Of a DNA stretch of 64,000 nt, positions 12,623 through 19,822 are shown in pieces. Origin of the DNA: Ruminococcus flavefaciens. Lineage in GTDB: Bacteria; Bacillota; Clostridia; Oscillospirales; Ruminococcaceae. Both the position numbers and the translations under genes were made by a program. The notes below the pieces were generated by a model. That model did not search any database and was not told the origin of the DNA. It saw only the letters and a program-made list of their open reading frames with translations. Numbering within the stretch: the stretch's first letter is position 1; every line of letters begins with the position of its first letter. Location: assembly GCA_015067005.1 (NCBI GenBank), contig SVNH01000002.1:62001-126000 (forward strand), written 5' to 3'.

Positions 12623-13816
12623 TCAGAAATCAAGCTTGCCTATAAGGTCGTAAACGTCGTTCATCAGGTACATCCTTGCAAAGCGTCTGTGAGGCTTCAT
12701 CATTTCCTCAGTTACCGTTTCATTGTCCACAGCCGGTGCAAGTACAAGCTTTAGATAGGCGATACCCCTTATGAACTCGACACGCTTATGGCGTATTTCT
12801 TCGCTGCATGGGAAATATTCGGAAATAAAGGTCCGGAAAAGCGATTCGCGCATATCATCCGAAAAGCCTGTTCCATCGTACCAGCTTCCGTTAAGTGTAA
12901 GCATTGAGGTATCTTCCTCGTTCATGCAGTAGGTTATGTAAATATCGGCAAGATCAAAAACAGGATGCCCCACACGGACATTTGCAAAATCCACAAAGAA
13001 CGGAGAGCCGTATTTCAGCATTATTCCCTCAGTGTCGAAATCACCGTAAAGGAAGGTATTCTTATCCGGTATAGTTGCAAGAAGATCATACATCATGTTA
13101 TAGTCTTCTTCGGAAAAATACTTCTTTGATTTCTCAAGCGCATACTGCAATTCCCTTTTGGCATCCGGCAAATCAGCGCCTTCCATTTCGGTGCAGTGTA
13201 CATCCTTCATAAATCCGGCGAAAACACGGGTATAGTAGCTTATCTTATCGGGATTGAGATATAGTGCAGCTGCAAGCATATGTGCATCCGAAAGCTCGTA
13301 AAGCTGACCGCAGCCCTCCTCAGTATATACTATCTCATAGGCAATTTCTGTCGGTATGCCGTTTATAAACGCTGAACGCGCGATAATATTCTCATTATCA
13401 ATATCATCAATGGTATTCTTCTTCAGATTGACCTTCAGCCAGAAATATTCGTCAACTCTGTAAAGCTTTATCGAATCGCTGCTTGCCTCAAGTTTAAGCC
13501 CCTTCAGCGACAGAGTACGCGGCTTGCGGCGTATCTCGAACATATCCCCCGAACCGCCTGCCATGAACAGTTCGTATAAGTTGTTAGATACGTTTATGAC
13601 ATTGATTTTCTCATCTTCCGAGCTCCTGAATCTAAGCAGAGTTCTGATGCCTTCGGTAGATATATACTCAACTCTGTACATATCAAATACCAGCGGGAGC
13701 CCGATATTATCATCGCATATCTCTCTTACACTTTTTTCGATCCTGTCTGAATGTGCAGAATCCAAACTTCCTTTAAGGTAAATTGTCAACTTGTGATTAG
13801 CTGTTGAAAAATCCAT
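12623..13816 (-). CDS. STAS domain fused to APH-like kinase
   Basis: Residues 1-100 form a STAS domain of the anti-sigma-factor-antagonist kind. Ser53/Thr54 in EYISTEG sit where such proteins are phosphorylated. Residues about 105-395 form an aminoglycoside-phosphotransferase-like kinase: Lys128 in the N-lobe, catalytic loop YGDFDTEG with Asp259, and metal-binding Asp276 in VDFANVRVGHPVFDLAD. The usual Asn of the catalytic loop is replaced by Gly264, so activity may be altered. ATG at 13816 has GAGG seven bases upstream and is preferred over 13834. The fusion suggests a kinase tied to a partner-switching or stress pathway. No anti-sigma gene is adjacent. Confidence 0.75.
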   Translation of the reverse strand: MDFSTANHKLTIYLKGSLDSAHSDRIEKSVREICDDNIGLPLVFDMYRVEYISTEGIRTLLRFRSSEDEKINVINVSNNLYELFMAGGSGDMFEIRRKPRTLSLKGLKLEASSDSIKLYRVDEYFWLKVNLKKNTIDDIDNENIIARSAFINGIPTEIAYEIVYTEEGCGQLYELSDAHMLAAALYLNPDKISYYTRVFAGFMKDVHCTEMEGADLPDAKRELQYALEKSKKYFSEEDYNMMYDLLATIPDKNTFLYGDFDTEGIMLKYGSPFFVDFANVRVGHPVFDLADIYITYCMNEEDTSMLTLNGSWYDGTGFSDDMRESLFRTFISEYFPCSEEIRHKRVEFIRGIAYLKLVLAPAVDNETVTEEMMKPHRRFARMYLMNDVYDLIGKLDF

Positions 13817-13925
13817 CCAAATTCCTCTTTTCACACGATATATCCGGCGAGCGATCCGGAAATCGCCATATTATGATAATAAATTACTGACAGTTGTATC
13901 TTTCTCATAATATACAACTAACTCT

Positions 13926-14383: not shown

Positions 14384-14412
14384 TTGCAAAATAATGCCGA
14401 ATATGGTAAAAT
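14384..14412 (+). promoter_or_regulatory. Sigma-A promoter of the TIR-RyR operon
   Basis: TTGCAA (14384-14389) and TAAAAT (14407-14412) are separated by 17 bp, about 50 bp upstream of the TIR gene start. Confidence 0.65.
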
Positions 14413-14465
14413 ATAAGTTGCTGAGCATAACTCAGTATAACTTCAATTATGAAATGGGTGGAACA

Positions 14466-17400
14466 ATGAGCGATTATAAGTATAAAGCTTTTATAAGCTA
14501 CCGTCATCTGGAACCTGATATGCAGGCAGCAGAAAAACTCCAGAAACTGCTTGAATCATACAAACCGCCGAAGAATCTCGGCAAAGAAAAGGGAAGCTGG
14601 CGTATCTTCCGCGATGTTTCCGAACTCCAGACAAGCTCCGATCTGAGTGAGGACATCCGCAACGCGATCGAGAATTCAGAATACCTGATAGTGATTTGCT
14701 CCCCTAAATATACCGAATCAAAATGGTGTATGCAGGAACTCGTGCGTTTCCGCGAGCTCCATGGCAATACAAATCAGAACATCATCACTCTTCTCGTTGC
14801 CGGAGAGCCTAAGGAAGCTTTTCCGGAGCTTCTGCAATACAACGAAGTCACTACGACCGATGAGAACGGTCAGGAGGTCAAGGTAAAGGTCGAGGTAGAG
14901 CCTCTTGCTGCGAATATCAAGGCTGATACGCTGAAAGAGTCCATGAAGAAGCTCAACACCGAATACCTGCGAATAGCTGCGCCACTTATCGGCTGCGATT
15001 TCAACGACCTCTACCAGCGTGAGAAAAAACGTGAAGCCCGCCGCAGGATGCAGGTCTTTGGTCTTGTTTCGGGAGTCCTTTCCGTTATAACCGTTATCAG
15101 TCTTGTTTCCGCTGTCACTATCAATAAGAAAAACAGCGAGATCAAGAACAAGAACGAACAGATCGAGGCTAAAAATGAGCAGATCGAAAAGAAAAACAAG
15201 GACCTCCTCATAGAGAATGCAGGTCACCTTGCTGCCGAATCTGAAAAATACTACGGCGAGAGCGATCTCATCCCCGCTATTCAGAAGGCTGTTGCCGCTC
15301 TACCTCAGAAAGGCGAGGACAAACCGGCTATCCCTGAGGCTGAGTACGCTCTTTCACGCGAGCTCGGAATGTTCAGATGCGAGCAGATAATACCGCGTCT
15401 TGCACTTAAACACGATTCCGCTGTTGAAAATATCTCCTTCATGGGCGGCGGTAAGTCGATCGTATCTACTGACGCTACCGGTGTTTACTTCTGGGATCCG
15501 GAAACAGGAAAGCTAATAAAAAAGATCGCTCCGTCTGATCCTGAATTCGCTTCCAAAAAGGAAAGCTCCAACCGTATTGACGCTTATTTCGATATTAACA
15601 CCGATAAGACCGGCACTGTCATGAAAAATGTAAGTGCTCCGGGAAGCGTTTCATATGAGATAAACCCTGTCCTCGGCAAGGTCTACAAAACCTATGTACA
15701 CAACCTCACAGACGATGAACCGGGTACAGGCGGCGACGTTTATATCTGCAATTCCGACCGTACCGTATGGCGTCTCGACGGCGCTACCGGTGAAGTAAAA
15801 TGGTGCGCTGAAGCTTCTGAGAAAGCGTATTCCTATGTCAGCATAGCTGAAGACGATGAACACATCCTGCGCGTATATCACGAAGCAAATACAATGCCCG
15901 ACGGCACGCCTATCGCCGGCAAAAGGATCCTCCTCGAAGTCATCGACCGCGAAACAGGCAGTATCAGCATCACTGCCGATCTCTCAGTTCTCGGCGCTAC
16001 CGCATATGATTTCGAGATCAACAACGAGATACAGTGCGTCAAGAACGATAAGCTCTATATTTACAACAGCCAGGATAACCGCATAAACGTCTACACTCTC
16101 AATGACGGCACTGCTGAATCCGAAAAGAGCATCGAAAGCGGTTCCGAAGACGGAAACCTCCTCACAAACGGCAGCCTCTGCTTCATTGATGATGATGCAC
16201 TCGTTTCATTCAACTCCAGCAAATCTCTCAACAGCATTACTTCACTCAGACGCTTCGACAGTGATGTCGCTGAAGAAAAATGGAGAACAGAAGTGCAGCT
16301 GAAGATAAACTCTGATGCCAAAAAATTCCTCTTTAAGAATGAAAATACCAGTGCAGGCTGTGATATCCTTGCGATCGTTACAAACATTGATATTGTGCTT
16401 ATCAACTATGATACCGGCAATATTATCAGGACTATCACTCTTGACAGTCATATCGTTGACACTTCATTCACAAGAACAGGTCTTATTATGATAACTGTCG
16501 AGGACGGTATCGAGTACACGCTCAACGTCGCATCATATACCGCCAGCGATAACCAGAATTCAGCTTACCGTACACAGAATTTCAATATGGGATTCAATCT
16601 TTGCAGTTACAGCAGAAACAAGTACGTTACAGCAGGAAGCTATTCAAGCACAGCATACATTCAGTATACTGCCGAGAATCCGTCTTACACTAAGCTCAAA
16701 GCCGATGATTTCGACCACAAGTACAATATCATCAGTACATCTCCGGACGGCACCTACGCACTCGTCAGTGCCACATGGTATGAGAACAATAAGTATAACG
16801 AGAACAGCCTGTTAAAAAACAATTATTACTTCTATAACACTGATAAGGATGAGATCACTGCGATAAGCTCTCTTGCAGACCTATCAATATCCGATGCTGT
16901 ATTCGTGGACAACAGCTCAGTCATCGCAGCTGTGTTCAATCCTAAGGGTGCAGCAGAGAAAAAGCTTGTCGTTTTAAAACCAGGCTCAGATGTATGCGAG
17001 GAAATTGCTGATCCGCCTGAGTTCGATTCAAACCATATCAAGCTGTTTGCAGCCGGCAGCGGTGTAGTTTATATCCCGAAGGATAAAAGAAGTGCAGCAT
17101 ATGTAGGTCTTGACAAGACTGTCAAGCTGTCTACCATTGATAAGGATGATTTCTACATTCTGGACGAATATACAGAGTACCGCAGCGGAAAGGCTGCTGT
17201 ACTCCTTCAAGAGCACTCATCAGGAAAGCTCATCGTAGAAGTACGTGATCCTGTCAACGGTAAAAATACCGATCTCGCACTTGAATGTCATCCGGATGCA
17301 GGTCTTAACATTTACAGACTCTTCTGGCAGAACGACAATACTGTCGGAGTATTCTTCAGCGACCGCACTGTCAAGCTTTATAACGCTCAGACCGGCGAAC

Positions 17401-17879
17401 TTACCACTTCCGTTGATCTTTCCTCTACTTCGCAGGAGCCGTTATCAGTCATCCCGCTCAGCGATGATACCTTCGGTGTTCTCTGCCGCGATTCCGGTCT
17501 CTATGAGATGAACTCAAACGGCTACACCGGCAGAAAGCTTAAGCTTGATACACCTGAGGACTATGGTGATGCTCTCGTTTCAGGTCTTAACGGCAAGGAC
17601 GCTTCACGTCTGAATGTGTCCGCTTCCGCTGACAAGGGCTACTTATACGTTGTATGGAAAAACGGAGTCGCATGGCTGATCGACCTTGATAACTTCAAGT
17701 GCCGCTATCAGATAGACGGCTATCAGGCTGCACCGTCAGGAAAGAGCATTGTCTATGCAAGCGACCTGTATAACGATAAGGTCGGCTGGTACCCGATATA
17801 TACTACAAATCAGCTTATCCAGACCGCAGGCGAATATCTTGAAAAGATGTCTGAAAAGGTGCAGGAGGCTGCTGAATGA
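14466..17879 (+). CDS. TIR-transmembrane-coiled coil-beta-propeller protein
   Basis: This 1137-residue protein starts with a TIR domain (residues 5 to about 120): FISYRH at 9-14, IFRD at 47-50, and SKWCMQE, whose Glu91 matches the NAD-hydrolysing Glu of active TIR enzymes. A basic stretch (188-194) and one transmembrane helix (196-218) follow, so the TIR should lie in the cytoplasm. A heptad-like coil rich in Asn, Lys and Glu spans 221-250. The remaining 850 residues contain repeated WD40/PQQ-like blades (for example VYFWDPETGKL and VWRLDGATGEV), probably two propellers outside the cell. I chose the ATG at 14466 (GGGTGG upstream), not 14364. Its stop overlaps the next gene by ATGA. Role in defence or signalling is inferred. 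Confidence 0.85.
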   Translation: MSDYKYKAFISYRHLEPDMQAAEKLQKLLESYKPPKNLGKEKGSWRIFRDVSELQTSSDLSEDIRNAIENSEYLIVICSPKYTESKWCMQELVRFRELHGNTNQNIITLLVAGEPKEAFPELLQYNEVTTTDENGQEVKVKVEVEPLAANIKADTLKESMKKLNTEYLRIAAPLIGCDFNDLYQREKKREARRRMQVFGLVSGVLSVITVISLVSAVTINKKNSEIKNKNEQIEAKNEQIEKKNKDLLIENAGHLAAESEKYYGESDLIPAIQKAVAALPQKGEDKPAIPEAEYALSRELGMFRCEQIIPRLALKHDSAVENISFMGGGKSIVSTDATGVYFWDPETGKLIKKIAPSDPEFASKKESSNRIDAYFDINTDKTGTVMKNVSAPGSVSYEINPVLGKVYKTYVHNLTDDEPGTGGDVYICNSDRTVWRLDGATGEVKWCAEASEKAYSYVSIAEDDEHILRVYHEANTMPDGTPIAGKRILLEVIDRETGSISITADLSVLGATAYDFEINNEIQCVKNDKLYIYNSQDNRINVYTLNDGTAESEKSIESGSEDGNLLTNGSLCFIDDDALVSFNSSKSLNSITSLRRFDSDVAEEKWRTEVQLKINSDAKKFLFKNENTSAGCDILAIVTNIDIVLINYDTGNIIRTITLDSHIVDTSFTRTGLIMITVEDGIEYTLNVASYTASDNQNSAYRTQNFNMGFNLCSYSRNKYVTAGSYSSTAYIQYTAENPSYTKLKADDFDHKYNIISTSPDGTYALVSATWYENNKYNENSLLKNNYYFYNTDKDEITAISSLADLSISDAVFVDNSSVIAAVFNPKGAAEKKLVVLKPGSDVCEEIADPPEFDSNHIKLFAAGSGVVYIPKDKRSAAYVGLDKTVKLSTIDKDDFYILDEYTEYRSGKAAVLLQEHSSGKLIVEVRDPVNGKNTDLALECHPDAGLNIYRLFWQNDNTVGVFFSDRTVKLYNAQTGELTTSVDLSSTSQEPLSVIPLSDDTFGVLCRDSGLYEMNSNGYTGRKLKLDTPEDYGDALVSGLNGKDASRLNVSASADKGYLYVVWKNGVAWLIDLDNFKCRYQIDGYQAAPSGKSIVYASDLYNDKVGWYPIYTTNQLIQTAGEYLEKMSEKVQEAAE

Positions 17880-19822
17880 AGAGCAAGGACAACAAACCGC
17901 GTTTCCTATACATATTAGCGATATTGTCGTTCTTTATCGCCACTGTACAGGGTGCATTGTATTACAGCTCGTATGAATTGTTTTTCAAGCTGCTTCTCGT
18001 ACTCCAGAACAGCATCAATGCTTTCGGCTTCAAAGCCACTGTTACGATAAAGGACGTTGTGAGCTACATGAACAGCGAACCAACTGTCCTCAACAAATCA
18101 GTCGGTTACCTTTACTGTATCGCAGTGTTCACCGCGCCTTACTGTACGATCTCATTCATGTACAAATTCCTCGAAAGGATACTAAGGCTGATAATCAACT
18201 TCCGGAGAGGAAAAAACTGCGAGCATATCCTTATCTTCGGTTATAACAGCGATGTGAAGTCGATGCTCCGCAACAACAAAAGCATTGATCTGAAAAAGAA
18301 CTGCGTACACATCATAACCGCCGAAGATCTGGCTACGGATGAATTCTACCGTCTGAACAAAAAAGGCTATCTTGTCCACATGATCGACGTTCTGAAAGCT
18401 AACGAGTCGGAACTTCCTGATCTCCTTGAAAAGATATACGCTGAAAAAGCTAAGAATGTAATTCTCTTCGAGGACTCTTCAATACGCAATTTCTCCCTGT
18501 TACAGCTTTTCAGACTCAACGAAGCGGATGATCCCTCACGTATAAAGCTTCCGGCAGGTGCCAAGATCTCCTGCCGCTGTGAGGAGGACGGTATAAGCCG
18601 CCTTATCGCCGAATACTACGACAAAACGTCCGGCACTGAGGCTTTCTTCGACCTCGAACTCATCGGTCTGCCCGAAATGCAGATACATAAAATGTACAGT
18701 GAAATACCACTGCATACGGTTTATAAAAACAGCGATACTCCCCTGCATGACTGGGATGTTCATCTGCTTGTAGTAGGTCTCGGAACACTCGGTATGGAAG
18801 CTGTATTGCAGGCTATGAACCTCGGAGTTGTCCATGAGGGGAACCGTATCGTGATAGACGTTGCCGATCCCGAAATAGAGTCTAAAAAGCACATCTTTAT
18901 GAATCAGTTCAGTGAAGATACCTTCGATTTTTCAGACTCAAAACTCACTTTGAAAAGTTCTGCTGCCGACGGTCATATGGAGATAAATTTCTACTCCATG
19001 AACGCTAAGTACAACGATTTCTACAATCATATCCGTCAGAACACAAAAACTGATCCCTACACCTATGCTGTGATCACCCTTGAGGACGTTGACCTTTCGG
19101 TCAACTGCGTGATGCAGATAGAGGAGATATTCTGCGAACATTCTGCTCATATACCGATACTCATGCGAATGGATTCCGACCGCCGTCTGGCAGGATATAT
19201 CTCCGATGCTTCCGGAGTCCTTGCTGATGTCTCACTCATCGACGACAGAAGCTGCGTCATAACTCTCGATATGATAATCAACCGCGAGATAGACAAGCGC
19301 GCAAAGGAATACAACCACTTCTACAACAACATCTCCATTATCTCTGCGGACGATACGGGCACTGCCGATAATTCAGATGCGGATGCGGAAAAGGAATGGA
19401 ACAAAATACGTCTTTTCCGCAGACTTTCAAGCAAAGCCGCTGCGTATCACGATGAGGTCAAAAACGATATTATCCCAAGACTCGCCGCCGAAAACGGCGT
19501 TGAACTCAAAGAAAAGCTTGAACAGCTTCTTGGTCCGTCAGGCTTGATCATGCAGTATACCGGTAAGGCTTGGCGCATGAACGGCACTGAACAGGAACTC
19601 CTTGAACAGATCAAAAATGACCGCTTTGCATATACGCTTGCTTCACTTGAACACCGCCGCTGGTGCTGCTACATGGCTTCCATCGGCTGGAGATGCGGTG
19701 AAAGAAGCGACCGCTTCAGACGAAATCCGTGTATCGTAACACAGGAAGAACTAATGAAGAAATTGCCGGATATGTGCAAATACGATCTTATGTCTCTTAT
19801 GGCAAGGTATCAGAAGCTGTAA
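17876..19822 (+). CDS. Two-TM protein with two TrkA_N-like domains and a RyR domain
   Basis: This 648-residue protein is translationally coupled to the TIR gene. Two hydrophobic helices (about 9-29 and 77-100) form a membrane hairpin with no TVGYGD-like potassium filter. A basic segment (101-113) places the rest in the cytoplasm. Two Rossmann-like TrkA_N/RCK units follow: one from 116 (HILIFGYNSD), the second from 294 (HLLVVGLGTLG). Residues 582-648 form a RyR domain with LEHRRWCCYMASIGW and a terminal HPC-like NPCIV. Bacterial RyR domains occur in predicted nucleotide-dependent conflict systems. The pair suggests a membrane effector or channel gated by a nucleotide made or used by the TIR partner. 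This is inference. Confidence 0.8.
   Translation: MKSKDNKPRFLYILAILSFFIATVQGALYYSSYELFFKLLLVLQNSINAFGFKATVTIKDVVSYMNSEPTVLNKSVGYLYCIAVFTAPYCTISFMYKFLERILRLIINFRRGKNCEHILIFGYNSDVKSMLRNNKSIDLKKNCVHIITAEDLATDEFYRLNKKGYLVHMIDVLKANESELPDLLEKIYAEKAKNVILFEDSSIRNFSLLQLFRLNEADDPSRIKLPAGAKISCRCEEDGISRLIAEYYDKTSGTEAFFDLELIGLPEMQIHKMYSEIPLHTVYKNSDTPLHDWDVHLLVVGLGTLGMEAVLQAMNLGVVHEGNRIVIDVADPEIESKKHIFMNQFSEDTFDFSDSKLTLKSSAADGHMEINFYSMNAKYNDFYNHIRQNTKTDPYTYAVITLEDVDLSVNCVMQIEEIFCEHSAHIPILMRMDSDRRLAGYISDASGVLADVSLIDDRSCVITLDMIINREIDKRAKEYNHFYNNISIISADDTGTADNSDADAEKEWNKIRLFRRLSSKAAAYHDEVKNDIIPRLAAENGVELKEKLEQLLGPSGLIMQYTGKAWRMNGTEQELLEQIKNDRFAYTLASLEHRRWCCYMASIGWRCGERSDRFRRNPCIVTQEELMKKLPDMCKYDLMSLMARYQKL

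Follow-up and report, generated by a model that had tools for sequence, protein, structure and literature searches.

Thoeris systems combine a TIR-domain protein, ThsB, with an effector, ThsA, which is a SIR2-SLOG protein in type I and a macro-domain protein with two transmembrane (TM) segments in type II. A gene pair resembling them is present in a stretch of 64,000 nucleotides from Ruminococcus flavefaciens (contig SVNH01000002.1 of assembly GCA_015067005.1, positions 62,001 to 126,000; hereafter, the window), where a TIR gene, g1, overlaps a downstream gene, g2, whose product, like the type II effector, is a two-TM protein, and ends in a RyR domain. Judging from the sequences, the predicted structures, and analogy with described proteins, the pair on balance appears to be a Thoeris-like system, in which the TIR domain would make an ADP-ribose (ADPR)-type signal, the RyR domain would receive it, and the membrane protein would act.

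A further point of reference is provided by phage proteins carrying the RyR domain. According to excerpts of a recent preprint (PMC13232231, bioRxiv 2026), such proteins bind or cleave the cyclic ADP-riboses (cADPR) 2'cADPR and 3'cADPR. In one of them, RyDEP, the ADPR-binding residues are H75, W78, and D117, and H75 and D117 form the catalytic dyad (PMC13232231). The same excerpts describe cADPR as an old proposed modulator of ryanodine receptors, and name no host RyR effector.

Architecture of the g1 and g2 Proteins

The pair lies on the forward strand of a 2.79-Mb genome, and the open reading frames (ORFs) confirm two real genes joined by an ATGA overlap (Table 1). The g1 product opens with a TIR domain (Pfam TIR_2 at residues 9–129 and TIR at residues 43–117), for which the original prediction had placed a putative NADase glutamate at position 91. 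This glutamate is conserved in 65/65 aligned TIR domains (30 of the g1 type, and 35 others that are g1-related or stand beside RyR or g2-type genes), a count that depends on the alignment, since some rows carry inserts directly before the glutamate column; 64 of the 65 rows are distinct. The AlphaFold model (predicted template modeling score, pTM, 0.71) has a long helix after the TM run and is mostly strand from residue 306 to 1110. The best Foldseek matches in the PDB are WD40 proteins, including Utp21 (tandem WD) and Apaf-1; because the template modeling scores (TM-scores) are low (∼0.15–0.28 by query), only a general WD40-like propeller character is claimed. Together, these results bear out the description of g1 as a TIR protein with one TM segment and a large propeller. 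The propellers would lie outside the cell if the TIR domain must be inside to meet NAD+, and this topology would be compatible with their acting as an outside sensor.

For g2, the predicted fold is that of a two-TM, tandem-RCK channel with a C-terminal RyR domain, and the closest PDB match found by Foldseek is GsuK. The earlier reading of two TM helices, two TrkA_N units, and a RyR domain is thus upheld and sharpened. On its predicted fold, the protein has the two-TM pore and tandem RCK ring of RCK-gated channels, and the pore-like part is well conserved in an alignment of 58 g2-type sequences (N45 in 54/58, F50 in 56/58, and F52 in 55/58); L005, L029, L041, L052, L058, L062, L063, and L065–L068 (L and G numbers are our own handles for loci and genomes), which are too short or match in the RyR part alone, are left out of this alignment. 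Filing g2 as a K+ channel proper was rejected, as the filter motif T-x-G-[YFL]-G occurs within the first 140 residues in 0/58 sequences.

The identity of the C-terminal domain, also part of the original prediction, is supported by the family profile and by matches to PF02026 (E up to 1) in 30/34 g2 relatives, the best at 4.3e-9. The PF02026 score of g2's own sequence is below the cut-off, and its genome is without a match in our Clostridia scan. The residues corresponding to those that bind ADPR in RyDEP, assigned by motif and alignment and not by superposition, are almost invariant (Table 1); the sole row lacking a counterpart of Asp637 is the remote L109 protein. Which part of g2 senses was left open in the original prediction; the RyR domain is the likelier receptor, and the TrkA_N units would form an RCK-type gating part within a channel-like fold.

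Co-occurrence of g1 and g2

A contig search yielded 63 loci, 30 of which contain g2 at 62% identity or more, and g1 lies directly upstream in 29 of these (in two frames in two of them), the 30th g2 being a fragment at a contig end. The close relatives of the pair are mostly from Ruminococcus, and many originate from the rumen or omasum. Among 60 genus genomes, some overlapping with the 63-locus set, both genes are present in 15, g1 only in one, g2 only in none, and neither in 44 (Fisher test, 3e-13, uncorrected for kinship; 34/60 genomes have a completeness of 90% or more and no more than 5% contamination). The two genes are side by side in 14 of the 15 (in G700, g1 is in two pieces); in the remaining genome, G710, the relatives of g1 (35%) and of g2 (46%) are on separate contigs, and another TIR gene adjoins the g2 relative. 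The sole genome with g1 only, G729, has a DHH protein at the g2 position. The insertion sites of the pair vary among the genus genomes. In the tree of the 58 g2-type proteins, the 30 g1-partnered rows form one clade with support 100, and 28 of them are distinct (L019 and L003, and likewise L038 and L002, are the same proteins from two collections). In L012 and L019/L003, g1 is split in two frames and g2 is intact; decay, misassembly, or a TIR piece that stands apart could account for this.

The association with TIR genes extends beyond the g1 clade. Of the 25 rows outside it (three remote rows excluded), three have one flank cut (L031, L050, and L060), and in 13 of the 22 readable loci a TIR gene lies within 1.3 kb, each with Pfam TIR_2 above the cut-off. 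These neighbors are of several kinds: on the same strand in six loci (529, 559, 492, and ∼600 amino acids), on the other strand in five (362–797 amino acids), and on both sides in two (412–674 amino acids, the downstream neighbors also having a DUF4268 domain). Nine loci were counted as having no TIR neighbor, including L048, with a TIR gene 5.2 kb away, and L004, with none in the 8.1 kb of contig upstream or the 1.6 kb downstream; TIR_2 occurs elsewhere in the genomes of seven of the nine, L048 among them. Two further candidates, L051:5600-6643 and L068:2853-3338, came from motif-seeded profile matches that Pfam rejected, and were not counted as TIRs. In L061 (Johnsonella) and L064 (the alphaproteobacterial Hoeflea), a TIR-propeller gene (TIR_2 at 5e-10 and 8.6e-17, respectively, with WD40-type matches) adjoins a TM protein, which in L064 has a RyR match at 6.4e-12 and a weak TrkA_N match, and in L061 has no Pfam match. 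These two and L109, whose protein also lacks a Pfam match, are long branches that the tree leaves unplaced.

Side observations were also made at these distant loci. L042 and L043 are close g2 loci with a TIR gene downstream in L042 only, suggesting that the partner was recently lost or gained. A protein of 652–722 amino acids recurs near g2-type genes (L040:1124-3289, L045:4731-6899, L049:10994-12952, and L051:6934-8997); a C-terminal RyR match below the Pfam cut-off is present in the copies of L040, L045, and L051, and the L049 copy matches nothing. The idea that this protein is a third gene of the system was not retained. In L051, this protein occupies the place where other loci have the TIR gene.

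Because co-occurrence in the genus is accompanied by recurrence with other TIR types, a chance neighborhood can be rejected with good support. The original proposal of a joint TIR and TrkA_N-RyR system is therefore well supported by adjacency, co-occurrence, TIR recurrence beside distant g2 genes, and conserved residues, with the modification that the pair is not exclusive.

Alternative Partners and the Wider Link Between RyR and TIR

Strict exclusivity was rejected on account of six loci in which a DHH protein of 494–517 amino acids (DHHA1 weak in most) adjoins a g1-type TIR-propeller gene in place of g2 (Table 1). This protein is perhaps a second partner, either another effector or a signal-degrading enzyme. 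Several more distant g1-type TIR proteins have neither g2 nor the DHH protein beside them. Stand-alone RyR proteins of 93–106 amino acids are encoded next to TIR genes in L097 (11650-11940), L143, L147, L148, L150, L151, and L152, and in L097 the gene is 3 bases from a TIR-propeller gene; these are possibly host off-switches. Because partners are exchanged behind a similar TIR-propeller protein (g2-type, DHH, or stand-alone RyR) and the insertion sites differ, we argue for a modular conflict system.

In Clostridia at large, PF02026 was found in 26/391 genomes, and nine of the 26 have a RyR match with TIR_2 no more than 8 kb away, against 0.34 expected for 46 TIR matches by a Poisson estimate that ignores kinship. 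RyR-TIR proximity is thus frequent and not universal (17/26 genomes are without it). Two other kinds of protein with a RyR-like motif were noted. In L167–L170, it occurs in a membrane protein of ∼650 amino acids with no TIR neighbor and with the same adjoining gene in all four; in L168 and L170, we take the adjacent proteins to be SecD/SecF-like. It also occurs in two large proteins that look kinase-like (L143:3780-7859, 1359 amino acids; L146:3654-8177, 1507 amino acids); their genes adjoin one for a stand-alone RyR protein and have TIR genes nearby.

Proposed Mechanism and Alternative Explanations

That the TIR domain acts on NAD+ and the RyR protein responds is our best inference, by analogy with the binding and cleavage of cADPRs by RyR-domain proteins described in the excerpted preprint (PMC13232231). 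Under the proposed mechanism, g1 would cross the membrane so that the TIR domain lies within the cell and the tandem propellers on its exterior, and a stimulus, conceivably phage adsorption or envelope disturbance, would trigger the TIR domain to convert NAD+, via Glu91, into a cyclic or linear ADPR signal. The g2 RyR domain may bind this signal in a pocket formed by His593, Trp596, and Asp637. Binding would be relayed by the tandem RCK-like ring to the two-TM part, which would open or breach the membrane in some other way, leading to growth arrest or death of the infected cell. The more specific proposal that g2 is an ADPR-gated membrane channel without a K+ filter, its RyR domain reading TIR-made cADPR, is drawn from the model and is put forward tentatively, as a possibility that we would not bet on as it stands.

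Several observations weigh against this interpretation. The genes adjacent to the pair in the window look ordinary (a STAS/APH-like protein, a weakly U32-like protein, and a pyridoxal phosphate enzyme) and do not form a defense island, so that an argument from such an island finds no support in the neighbors. No match to g2 was found in phage or plasmid collections, and the idea that it is mobile-element cargo was set aside; nor did g2 match any PADLOC 2023 or NCBIfam 2026 model at E up to 1. With regard to distant relatives, a TIR neighbor is lacking in 9/22 readable loci, a TIR_2 match was not found in the genomes of L028 and L039, the three cut-flank loci have no TIR on the readable side, and in 5/13 TIR-bearing loci the TIR gene is tail to tail, on the other strand. 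At the level of the protein, the g2-GsuK TM-scores are moderate (0.36 by query, 0.56 by target), the TM part is modeled at a predicted local distance difference test (pLDDT) score of ∼62–84, the K+ filter is absent, and the place of the phosphate-contacting H100 of RyDEP is taken by Asn in 43/58 sequences, including g2 itself.

The strongest rival holds that the RyR domain is an off-switch, which hydrolyses the TIR product or sequesters it, as RyDEP does, making g2 an antidote or regulator of g1. Retention of the counterparts of both dyad residues (His593 in 58/58 and Asp637 in 57/58) is in keeping with such a role, as is the occurrence of stand-alone RyR proteins beside TIR genes; however, a conserved two-TM, tandem-RCK body, with N45, F50, and F52 kept in 54–56 of 58 sequences, would be superfluous in an antidote, and, in the preprint excerpts, the other tested RyDEP homologs did not cleave despite being highly conserved (PMC13232231). 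We regard this explanation as unlikely. It is also conceivable that the TIR domain merely destroys NAD+, and that g2 works separately, as a nucleotide-gated channel or a regulator of a transporter, reading the levels of NAD+, ADP, or ADPR in turgor or energy stress, and not in defense. The ADP- and NAD-bound entries of GsuK, the closest fold (4gx1, 4gx2), and the GxG kept in the second Rossmann unit (G301 in 58/58, G303 in 57/58) could be explained in this way, but the RyR domain would be left without a role, and the patchy presence of the pair (15/60), its varied insertion sites, and the exchange of partners suit a conflict system better; such a stress function seems improbable to us. Finally, g1 and g2 might be neighbors by descent only, with no joint function, as could be supposed from g1 relatives that have another partner and from the distant g2 loci without a TIR gene (9/22). 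Given the 15/1/0/44 co-occurrence, the ATGA coupling, and the different TIR types beside distant g2 genes, this last explanation is largely refuted, and we give it hardly any weight.

Coordinates and Neighboring Genes

The features of the pair are listed in Table 1. The promoter-like site upstream of g1 is weak, because such matches are common in the region (19, against 11.1 expected from shuffles). The gene immediately upstream of the pair (12623-13834, reverse strand) encodes a STAS domain fused to an APH-like kinase part; its own genome contains seven matches to it, some of which are short, whereas none in the remaining 59 genus genomes is close (the best being 32% identity over part and 29% over most of its length).

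Table 1. Features of the g1-g2 pair in the window, and of the DHH genes at other loci (aa, amino acids).
Feature	Position	Strand	Basis or remark
Promoter-like TTGCAA-17-TAAAAT, TG ahead of second hexamer, before g1	14384..14412	+	Consensus scan, 9/12; weak
g1, TIR - TM - tandem beta-propeller protein, 1137 aa	14466..17879	+	ORF, Pfam, AlphaFold model (pLDDT 85.3); TGA stop at 17877-17879
TIR domain, residues 1-175	14466..14990	+	TIR_2 E 9.8e-14, TIR 1.1e-11, ThsB_TIR 3.2e-6
Codon of Glu91, putative NADase glutamate in WxxxE	14736..14738	+	E in 30/30 g1-type and 35/35 other TIRs
Single TM segment, residues 195-219	15048..15122	+	Hydrophobic, from sequence; model helix 179-212, pLDDT <50 at 197-222
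WD40-like tandem beta-propellers, residues 306-1110, probably outside	15381..17795	+	Model strands; Foldseek top matches are WD40 proteins, E ~1e-18
AGGAGG ribosome-binding site of g2, within the 3' end of g1	17863..17868	+	From sequence
ATGA overlap (4 bases), g2 start and g1 stop	17876..17879	+	ORFs, sequence
g2, 2TM - RCK-like x2 - RyR protein, 648 aa	17876..19822	+	ORF; AlphaFold model (pLDDT 86.5, pTM 0.78)
TM1, residues 7-29	17894..17962	+	Model helix 7-29
Short helix 35-50 at pore-helix position; conserved N45, F50, F52 near; without K+ filter motif	17978..18025	+	Model, alignment
TM2 and extension, residues 71-112	18086..18211	+	Model
Rossmann unit 1 (RCK1-like), residues 116-263	18221..18664	+	Model; GsuK/CASTOR/TrkA matches
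Rossmann unit 2 (RCK2-like), residues 295-455	18758..19240	+	Model; alignment (G301 58/58, G303 57/58)
RyR (R12-type) domain, residues 513-648	19412..19819	+	Profile against PDB: RyR3 1.4e-7, RyR1 chimera 2.6e-14; PF02026 in 30/34 members
Codon of His593, counterpart of RyDEP H75	19652..19654	+	H 58/58; via H-x-x-W motif
Codon of Trp596, counterpart of RyDEP W78	19661..19663	+	W 58/58
Codon of Asn617, at the place of RyDEP H100	19724..19726	+	N 43, H 13, S 2 of 58
Codon of Asp637, probable counterpart of RyDEP D117	19784..19786	+	D 57/58; assigned across a loop of different length
DHH protein	L094:5456-7009, L095:4990-6543, L096:5611-7164, L098:3863-5377, L108:11728-13212, L193:3817-5370		Beside TIR-propeller gene

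Comparison With Known Systems

Like Thoeris, the pair consists of two genes, one for a putative TIR enzyme and one for a presumed effector with a nucleotide-sensing domain, and the g1 TIR domain matches ThsB models weakly. A TIR domain with a conserved catalytic glutamate (65/65) is found beside the presumed effector gene, but g2, which matches none of the PADLOC or NCBIfam models, is not a ThsA of a type described there: its putative sensor is a RyR domain instead of SLOG or macro, its body has an RCK channel-like fold, and the g1 TIR domain is fused to a TM segment and propellers. Among open-license papers, Thoeris and RyR are named together in PMC13232231 and PMC8295901. A search of the open-license literature returned no paper joining Thoeris with TrkA and TIR, or a TIR domain with an RCK domain and phage. 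RyR domains are reportedly discussed in the 2015 treatment of nucleotide-centric conflict systems by Burroughs. We provisionally consider the pair new as a variant of Thoeris-like systems, and it may already be included in a preprint survey of TIR systems (Yirmiya, 2025; bioRxiv 2025.12.03.692087), which at least three later preprints, that on RyDEP among them, cite.

From the RCK-gated channels GsuK, MthK, BK, CASTOR, and DMI1, g2 differs in lacking T-x-G-[YFL]-G and in its extra C-terminal RyR domain. With RyDEP, it shares the RyR domain (PF02026) and the ligand residues, H-x-x-W and Asp; however, H100 of RyDEP is mostly Asn in the g2 family, and RyDEP is a phage anti-Thoeris protein, whereas g2 is a host membrane protein coupled to a TIR gene. 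A host RyR-domain effector next to a TIR gene would give context to the RyR-domain anti-Thoeris proteins of phages. TIR enzymes and ADPR signals are a currency common to bacterial, plant, and animal immunity, and new receptors show how the signal is read.

By profile, the g2 RyR domain is homologous to the R12 repeat of animal ryanodine receptors, which differ in that g2 has a single RyR unit on an unrelated channel body. If g2 is an ADPR-gated channel, its RyR domain would be a bona fide cADPR receptor on a bacterial channel, and the debated link between cADPR and the animal ryanodine receptor would have a bacterial counterpart, perhaps an ancestor. A host RyR-domain effector beside a TIR gene would also offer a small, testable bacterial model for a question long asked of animal ryanodine receptors, namely whether the RyR domain acts as a cADPR receptor that gates a membrane protein.

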